Positions 13,439 through 15,244 of a DNA stretch of 64,000 nt are shown here, in pieces (the first letter of the stretch is position 1; each line of letters opens with the position of its first letter). The notes under the pieces are model-generated. The model did not search any database and had not been told where the DNA came from. It saw only the letters and a program-made list of their open reading frames with translations. The DNA comes from Paracholeplasma brassicae (GTDB taxonomy: Bacteria > Bacillota_I > Bacilli_A > Acholeplasmatales > UBA5453). The position numbers and the translations under genes were made by a program. The stretch lies in assembly GCF_000967915.1 (NCBI RefSeq), contig NC_022549.1, positions 372,001-436,000 on the forward strand. The letters run 5' to 3'.

Positions 13439-14446
13439 ATGATAAAGATTGCAGTTGATGCAATGGGGGGCGACTTCGCACCTAAAATTACAGTCCTTGG
13501 GGCAATGGATGCCGTCAAACAATTTGAGGATATCGAAATCACTTTGTTTGGTGATCAAGATAAAATCAACGAATTCTTAATTGCTCACCCAAGAATTAAA
13601 GTAGAAAAAACAACTCAAGTCATCGATATGGGAGAAAAAGACCCGATTCGAGCGATTAGAAATAACAAAGATTCATCGATGGTTAGAGCGATGTATAGTG
13701 TTAAAGAAGGTCAAACACAAGCGCTTGTTTCAGCTGGACCAACCCAGGCAATTATCGCAGGTGCGCACTTAGTTATCAAACGCATGTCATTGATGCATCG
13801 TGTCGCCTTGGCTCCGATCATTCCATCAACTGATGGTAGAGGTCGAATACTACTGGATGTCGGCGCAAACATCGAGCTAAGAAGTGAACATTTACTAGAA
13901 TTAGCACTTTATGCGACAATCACAGCAAGAGAGTATTTAGGTATTAAGGACCCAAAGGTTGCGCTAATAAACATTGGCAGTGAAGAAGGTAAAGGTAGAG
14001 ATTTAGAAAAAGAAACCTTCCAACTATTGAAAAACCACCCAATGATTAATTTTATGGGCAACATTGAAGGTAAAGAAGTTTTGTCAACCGATGCGGACAT
14101 TATGCTAACTGACGGTTACACAGGTAATGTTTTAATGAAAACCGTTGAAGGCACTGCTAAAGCGATGGGTAGCATGCTTAAAGAAGAGATTAAATCCTCT
14201 TTAGGTGGGAAGATTGGTTATCTATTCATGAGAAAAAATCTAAAACGTTTTTCAAAACGTCTAGACGCTTCAGAAATTGGTGGAGCAATGATTTTCGGTA
14301 TTCAAGCACCTGTGATTAAAGCACATGGTTCATCGTCTGCATATGCATTTAAAAATGCGATTGCACAGGCACGTTTATTTGTAAAAAATGACGTGCTTAA
14401 TCAAGTGAATGAAGCACTTGAAAAGACACTAACAAAAGAAGAATAA
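13439..14446 (+). CDS. plsX: Phosphate acyltransferase PlsX
   Basis: Converts acyl-ACP to acyl-phosphate, the donor used by PlsY to start phospholipid synthesis. The start IKIAVDAMGGDFAPK is diagnostic, followed by the DPIRAIRNNKDSSMVRAM and SAGPTQAIIAGA segments and the C-terminal HGSSSAYAFKNAI. At 335 residues it is full length. It links the fatty acid operon at 18252 to membrane lipid synthesis. A 10-bp inverted repeat follows, then rnc. Confidence 0.96.
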   Translation: MIKIAVDAMGGDFAPKITVLGAMDAVKQFEDIEITLFGDQDKINEFLIAHPRIKVEKTTQVIDMGEKDPIRAIRNNKDSSMVRAMYSVKEGQTQALVSAGPTQAIIAGAHLVIKRMSLMHRVALAPIIPSTDGRGRILLDVGANIELRSEHLLELALYATITAREYLGIKDPKVALINIGSEEGKGRDLEKETFQLLKNHPMINFMGNIEGKEVLSTDADIMLTDGYTGNVLMKTVEGTAKAMGSMLKEEIKSSLGGKIGYLFMRKNLKRFSKRLDASEIGGAMIFGIQAPVIKAHGSSSAYAFKNAIAQARLFVKNDVLNQVNEALEKTLTKEE

Positions 14447-14464
14447 TCAAACAATAGAACAAGG

Positions 14465-14488
14465 ATCAGGCGTTTGATAACGCCTGAT
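14465..14488 (+). terminator. Hairpin after plsX (weak terminator)
   Basis: ATCAGGCGTT and AACGCCTGAT form a perfect 10-bp stem with a TGAT loop. The following TTTGCTGTTT is a poor T-run, so read-through into rnc is likely. Confidence 0.5.
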
Positions 14489-14501
14489 TTGCTGTTTCGA
14501 T

Positions 14502-14554
14502 TGTATTGATAATGAACAACATACACAATTTTGTAGTTGTTGATTATCGATACA
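14502..14554 (+). promoter_or_regulatory. Long hairpin in the rnc leader, possible RNase III autoregulation site
   Basis: The 19-base arms 14502-14520 and 14536-14554 pair with 17 Watson-Crick pairs, one G-U and one mismatch. Inside them TACA (14522-14525) pairs with TGTA (14532-14535), leaving a six-base loop. The stem of about 22 bp ends 13 bases before the rnc ribosome site. RNase III cleaves a hairpin in its own leader in E. coli and Streptomyces; the same control here is inference. Confidence 0.5.
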
Positions 14555-14581
14555 CTCCATAAAAAAAGAGAGGGTATCTAC

Positions 14582-15244
14582 ATGAAAAGTATTGAACAAG
14601 TATTAAAAGTAAAGTTTCATAATAAACTCCTACTAGAACAAGCCTTGACACACTCAAGCTTCGCAAACGAAAATGAGTGTAAGGATAACGAAAGACTTGA
14701 GTTCCTAGGGGATGCAGTTATTGGATTGATGATGGCAGACTACCTTTATAATCAACACCAAGGTGATGAAGGCGAAATGTCAAAAAAACGTGCTCAAGCG
14801 GTATGTGAAGAAGCACTAAACGTTTATGCAAAAAAAATAAATTTATCGCAGTATCTAAAACTAGGTAAGGGTGGAGAAATATCAAACGGTAGAGAAAATC
14901 CTTCGATTATTGCTGATGCCTTCGAGGCAATTTTTGGTTCTTTATACATCGATCAAGGCTACATACAAACCAAAAATCTATTTGATCGTATCGTCATTCC
15001 ACACCTTGATGAGGTGGTGGGAATTAAAGACTATAAGTCGACCCTACAAGAGTTAGTACAGACTGACAGGAGAAACATTTCATATCACATTGACAACCAA
15101 ACTGGCCCATCGCACGATCGTGTTTTTACTGCATCTGTTCGCATGGATGATATTGTCTATGGTGTCGGTAAGGCAAGATCAAAAAAAGAAGCTGAACAAA
15201 ATGCTGCAAAAGAAGCACTTAAGAAATTAGCAAAAGAGTTTTAA
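14582..15244 (+). CDS. rnc: Ribonuclease III
   Basis: Double-strand-specific endoribonuclease for rRNA processing and mRNA decay. The signature DNERLEFLGDAVIGLMM (around residues 36-52) holds the metal-binding Glu and Asp, and DAFEAIFGSLYIDQG holds the second acidic cluster. The C-terminal ~70 residues are a double-stranded RNA-binding domain ending ARSKKEAEQNAAKEALKKL. I start at ATG 14582, nine bases after AGAGAGGG; a TTG at 14537 in frame lies in the leader hairpin and lacks a ribosome site. No smc or acpP adjoins it, unlike Bacillus. Confidence 0.95.
   Translation: MKSIEQVLKVKFHNKLLLEQALTHSSFANENECKDNERLEFLGDAVIGLMMADYLYNQHQGDEGEMSKKRAQAVCEEALNVYAKKINLSQYLKLGKGGEISNGRENPSIIADAFEAIFGSLYIDQGYIQTKNLFDRIVIPHLDEVVGIKDYKSTLQELVQTDRRNISYHIDNQTGPSHDRVFTASVRMDDIVYGVGKARSKKEAEQNAAKEALKKLAKEF

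Follow-up and report, generated by a model that had tools for sequence, protein, structure and literature searches.

The ribonuclease III gene (rnc) of Acholeplasma brassicae (= Paracholeplasma brassicae) is directly preceded by a long hairpin, set in a 135-base gap that separates rnc from the upstream gene plsX. On the basis of folding models we tentatively propose, in the knowledge that it may well prove wrong, that an RNase III site peculiar to this species lies in the gap, either in the rnc leader or between the two cistrons, and that rnc expression would be damped by it. Self-control of rnc through the hairpin is plausible but unproven; we favour it because of the length, place and rarity of the hairpin, its bias towards the coding strand, the lack of a terminator tail, and the established self-control of RNase III.

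The genome is a single contig of 1,877,792 bases, and the window, that is the whole stretch of 64,000 nucleotides that was analysed, corresponds to positions 372001-436000. Open reading frames were called by length only, and family profile matches gave the gene order recG, plsX, rnc, DnaD-domain gene, nth, the recG match scoring slightly below the cut-offs of the recG models. For plsX, the match to NCBIfam TIGR00182 reached 347 bits (cut-off 243). The gene after the hairpin had been predicted to be rnc, and this was borne out by a match to TIGR02191 of 238 bits (cut-off 166). The 135 bases extend from the plsX stop (14446) to the rnc ATG (14582).

13439..14446, forward strand: plsX (phosphate acyltransferase), the upstream gene; open reading frame with stop TAA at 14444-14446, TIGR00182
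14499..14557, forward strand: hairpin B, 24 pairs in total, 22 of them within 14502-14554; folding and stem scan
14568..14573, forward strand: Shine-Dalgarno-like GAGAGG of rnc; read from the sequence
14582..15244, forward strand: rnc (ribonuclease III); open reading frame, TIGR02191

Hairpin B exists as originally described: folding recovered 22 pairs between 14502 and 14554, with one mismatch, one bulge and a six-base loop, and the spacing to the ribosome site of rnc is the predicted 13 bases (14555-14567, up to GAGAGG). From the outside inward, two pairs (14499-14500/14556-14557) and a mismatch are followed by 12 pairs (14502-14513/14543-14554), a G.G mismatch (14514/14542), six pairs (14515-14520/14536-14541), a bulged A (14521), four pairs (14522-14525/14532-14535) and the loop (14526-14531). 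Folded alone, 14490-14570 forms a single hairpin with a minimum free energy (MFE) of -25.5 kcal/mol (z -5.57), and none of 200 dinucleotide shuffles was as good. RNase III substrates have stems of about 20 pairs or more. With 22 to 24 pairs in the rnc message, the hairpin is long enough for an RNase III autoregulatory mRNA site, and the prediction that its stem would suit the enzyme holds in this respect. Owing to G-U pairing, the coding strand of 14499-14557 forms the more stable fold of the two (-24.4 and 24 pairs, versus -18.0 and 21 pairs for the complement), a difference that, in the folding model, suits an RNA element rather than a DNA palindrome. The stem is A+U-rich and is followed by CATAAAAAAAGA; as no U tract follows and the terminator scan does not list hairpin B, an ordinary terminator was ruled out. 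A known Rfam element was likewise rejected, the window giving no Rfam match above the gathering score.

A stem scan covered 704 kb of the A. brassicae chromosome (the window plus 32 stretches) on both strands, that is 1,408,000 strand-bases with 630 crudely called open reading frames. It returned 124 hairpins of 20 or more pairs, 51 of 22 or more and 19 of 24 or more. Two thirds of the first group (83 of 124) are in coding sequence, so that long stems occur without a known role too. The others are intergenic, 26 being terminator-like and 15 not, according to a simple T-count rule, and the 15 count hairpin B itself twice, once for each strand. When a same-strand open reading frame was required to start within 150 nt downstream, the intergenic non-terminator hairpins came down to three at 20 or more pairs, two at 22 or more, and a single one at 24 or more, which is hairpin B, before the RNase III gene. 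Local energy minima of -25.5 or lower, on the other hand, numbered 30 in 608,000 strand-bases, hairpin B among them. Being rare before an open reading frame without a T tract, and not rare by energy, hairpin B is unusual for its place and not for its energy.

The original prediction did not include a second stem, which lies upstream and competes with the base of hairpin B. The features that bear on this competition are the following.

14418..14447, forward strand: TTGAAA-18-AATAAT where plsX ends, a weak promoter-like site (10/12); motif scan
14446..14511, forward strand: stem A in its extended form, with as many as 27 pairs and in competition with the lowest part of hairpin B; MFE -28.4, z -8.3
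14465..14488, forward strand: core of hairpin A, 10 pairs and a 4-base loop, then a poor T tract; terminator scan and folding
14550..14579, forward strand: weak hairpin C, formed between the Shine-Dalgarno region and the 3' arm of B once this is free; folding

Folding of the whole gap (MFE -48.1, z -7.82) gave stem A with 22 pairs at 14451-14504, plus hairpin C, and in this minimum-energy fold 14500-14504 belong to stem A and are lost to the base of hairpin B. In RNAs with the end of plsX, the predicted probability of the lower stem of B fell with temperature from 0.28-0.47 (37 C) through 0.11-0.29 (30 C) to 0.05-0.19 (25 C), so that in read-through transcripts from plsX 5-47% of the predicted ensemble contains the whole of the stem first described. 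Full hairpin B was predicted at a probability of 0.98-0.99 in RNA starting at 14453 or later, and at 0.98 when 14440-14458 was kept from pairing, as a ribosome at the plsX stop would do. An RNA from the promoter-like site would begin near 14454 and would hold the entire hairpin B, without the competing strand. The AATAAT of this site overlaps the plsX stop codon, and promoter-like sites in the region are not above chance (five, against a mean of 6.9 in shuffles). According to the models, a stem of about 22 pairs is present in either fold, A or B.

Mutually exclusive stems recall a transcription attenuator, where stem A would end some plsX transcripts and the pairing of 14500-14504 with A or with B would set the read-through. 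Stem A is compact, with five G-C pairs, as such a device would have it. However, its tail (TTGCTGTTTCG) is a poor U tract, the terminator scan flagged A on the minus strand only, and the locus offers neither a regulator or ligand site nor, in the whole window, an Rfam match; we consider an attenuator quite unlikely.

The same stems could also form a two-state leader, making RNase III output depend both on plsX expression and on the enzyme's own level. Under read-through from plsX, stem A would break the base of B, and the 3' arm of B would pair with the rnc Shine-Dalgarno sequence; with the plsX stop occupied, or with a start near 14454, B would be whole and RNase III could cut it, after which the freed 3' arm would mask the Shine-Dalgarno sequence again. 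None of the modelled states leaves the Shine-Dalgarno core (14570-14571) mainly unpaired (unpaired probability 0.01-0.33; 0.29-0.47 in fragments starting at 14553 or later), which leaves a small contrast between off and on and speaks against this model. Hairpin C, at -7.0 kcal/mol, is barely above chance (equalled by 12 of 500 shuffles over 14548-14584 and by 95 of 500 over 14540-14600) and counts against it as well. A two-state leader thus appears highly improbable, and a Shine-Dalgarno switch was set aside as the main reading.

Relatives of A. brassicae were compared at the same locus. A match to rnc was found in 60 of 61 genomes, A. brassicae included, the one without a match being 64% complete (G005). 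Loci were gathered from 50 of the 60 genomes with an rnc match, namely A. brassicae itself and 49 relatives, and in one genome (G011) one of two rnc matches was covered. In the 11 family relatives with rnc (five of the same genus and six others of the same family), rnc overlaps plsX by 8 to 17 nt in nine, and starts 2 or 12 nt after plsX in the remaining two; a gap longer than 12 nt was found in none of them. More widely, plsX lies upstream in 93 of 130 rnc loci, a set that contains duplicates as some of its 80 named loci are from the same genomes as others, and the other 37 have no adjacent plsX in the stretch covered. The gap in the 93 loci is at most 10 nt in 67, 11-50 in four, 51-100 in three, and above 100 in 19 including A. 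brassicae, where the count for the other 18 may include intervening genes. One locus from another family of the order (L138, genome G027) has 152 nt between plsX and rnc.

The original prediction was open to refutation by loss of the stem in related genomes, and on this point it failed: in each of the 11 family relatives the space before rnc is too short for the hairpin, and there are consequently no paired changes to compare. A conserved leader element is ruled out by the same lack of space. No long match to the gap sequence was present in 12 relatives (best E 0.006, over 21 nt), and within the A. brassicae genome the gap matched only itself at E 0.001, the others being at E 0.69 or worse over at most 22 nt. 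A repeated palindromic or mobile element (MITE, REP-like) was therefore excluded, the gap sequence being single-copy. Judged from these alignments, hairpin B either arose in A. brassicae or disappeared from all the relatives examined, and the simpler account is that the 135-nt gap is probably an insertion. The self-control site first predicted is thus upheld in its substrate length, its place before rnc and its rank as the strongest non-terminator leader hairpin in 704 kb, but not in its preservation; that none of the 11 family relatives carries hairpin B counts against the proposal.

The contrast between the compact junction of the relatives, with gaps of at most 10 nt in most loci, and the spaced one of A. 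brassicae could have a different meaning. The hairpins may protect the 3' end of plsX mRNA, end translational coupling and allow unequal amounts of plsX and rnc, self-control not being the point. A similar intercistronic hairpin exists elsewhere in the same genome (L161:10078-10129, in the stretch 760001-780000), with 21 pairs and two unpaired bases, directly before the ribosome site of a permease-like gene and after a sugar-binding-protein-like gene of the same operon, both names being provisional; it looks like an intercistronic stabiliser. However, hairpin B is nearer to rnc than to plsX, and hairpin A by itself would suffice for 3' protection. We regard this stabilising or decoupling role as doubtful, though a serious contender.

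The insertion could also be without any role, a quasi-palindromic by-product of a duplication or template switch at the plsX-rnc junction. The gap is species-specific and single-copy, its two stems share one strand, and hairpins can be created in one step by template switching, as reported in PMC8794818. An imperfect direct repeat of 18 nt (78%), at 14449-14466 and 14586-14603, flanks the hairpins, and its left copy was compared with the rnc starts of 10 relatives.

14449..14466, forward strand: left repeat copy, possible relic of the ancestral rnc 5' end; comparison with relatives' rnc starts

This copy resembles the rnc start of one same-genus relative (L003) in an alignment of 15 columns that includes one gap and was equalled by 9 of 2000 random pieces, whereas for the other nine relatives 130 or more of 2000 were as good. 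That it is a relic of the ancestral rnc start is a suggestion only, and with one relative of 10 it lends a neutral origin little weight. Tandem duplication of the rnc 5' region was rejected as the source of the whole gap, the best match being 15 nt only. A template-switch copy of the flanks found no support: the hairpin arms have no significant copy there, the best gap-flank matches in either orientation being equalled by 88 to 954 of 1000 random pieces. Moreover, a ribosome site was acquired in the insertion, and its hairpin has remained stronger than any other leader hairpin in the sample. A neutral by-product is in our view unlikely.

Under the proposal of self-control, the species-specific 135-nt insertion would have given rnc a structured leader of its own. 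Hairpin B, or stem A in RNA reading through from plsX, would offer roughly 22 pairs or more, enough for RNase III. A cut in the stem would separate rnc from plsX and expose a new 5' end to decay, and rnc would be lowered when the enzyme is in excess. This would amount to a negative feedback of the E. coli rncO kind, independently reached. It counts against the proposal that the coincidence of the hairpin with rnc was noticed after the fact. Also against it are the 30 energy minima as low as that of hairpin B, the many long stems in coding sequence, and the incomplete formation of the stem first described in read-through RNA. Paired leader and trailer of 16S RNA are the usual substrate of RNase III; in the four 16S genes of A. 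brassicae, long leader and trailer sequences pair with each other (duplex energies between -60 and -72), and the enzyme thus has its ordinary work in this species.

That RNase III controls itself by cutting its own message is established for E. coli, where the cut is in the leader, and for S. aureus and Streptomyces, where it is in the coding region, according to the accounts in PMC3386247 and PMC8708148. Leader cleavage had originally been attributed to both E. coli and Streptomyces; it stands for the former, whereas the Streptomyces site is given as a coding-region one in PMC3386247. Self-control had also been thought unreported in this lineage: the Bacilli have the S. aureus case, as described in PMC3386247, and for the Mollicutes no report was found in the literature, as judged by titles and abstracts. 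The closest likeness is to E. coli rncO (Bardwell 1989 and Matsunaga 1996, as cited in PMC3386247 and PMC8708148), a long stem just before rnc without coding function. But rncO is cut by RNase III, whereas the A. brassicae stem is a predicted site, in one species only and with a competing upstream stem, and rnc here follows plsX and not its own leader of an rnc-era operon. The RNase III of S. aureus, broadly speaking a Gram-positive relative, reduces the level of its own mRNA, but the cut is in the coding region (U+296) and not before the gene, and the site is conserved among staphylococci, as stated in PMC3386247. Streptomyces coelicolor absB/rnc shares a polycistronic transcript and RNase III controlling its own gene (PMC10126417, PMC3386247), the site being in the coding region, as PMC3386247 has it, and not before rnc as is the A. 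brassicae stem. The intercistronic RNase III site of E. coli rpsO-pnp, as presented in PMC8708148, is also a stem between two genes of one message, and a cut at the A. brassicae stem would similarly part the genes and destabilise the second; there the second gene is pnp and cleavage was shown, here it is rnc and cleavage is predicted. Putative endonuclease cut positions in the B. subtilis transcript encoding RNase III are listed in PMC11780869.

If RNase III does cut the leader, a single Acholeplasma species would have acquired the feedback afresh, through the insertion of a structured leader. This would support the view put forward in PMC3386247 of a feedback that is kept while its site wanders, and would provide a before-and-after case, relatives with rnc overlapping plsX against one species with a decoupled, structured leader. 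If not, the locus cautions that long hairpins next to the gene for a nuclease can be recent insertions.

Stable structure near rnc was also recorded in other lineages. Upstream sequence was long enough in 128 of the 130 loci; in 14 of these, a fold window reaching -25 or lower lies no more than 150 nt ahead of the rnc match: A. brassicae itself, one Ruminococcus locus where the window begins 150 nt upstream, and 12 with compact G+C-rich hairpins, from Flavonifractor, Intestinimonas, one uncultured Clostridia bacterium and Terribacillus.

L071, L072, L073, L080, L083, L085, L088, L091, L093, L103, L105, L111: G+C-rich upstream hairpin, within 150 nt before rnc

In those lineages the hairpins are perhaps the ends of the upstream gene. 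A z of -4.5 or lower upstream of rnc was reached in four of the 128 loci (L085, L105, L111 and A. brassicae). Finally, windows inside rnc fold unusually well in two same-genus relatives, at about +96 in L003 (z -5.4) and at about +516 in L006 (z -5.0), positions being counted from the start of the rnc match and with 60 shuffles each; by analogy with S. aureus, these are possible coding-region RNase III sites.
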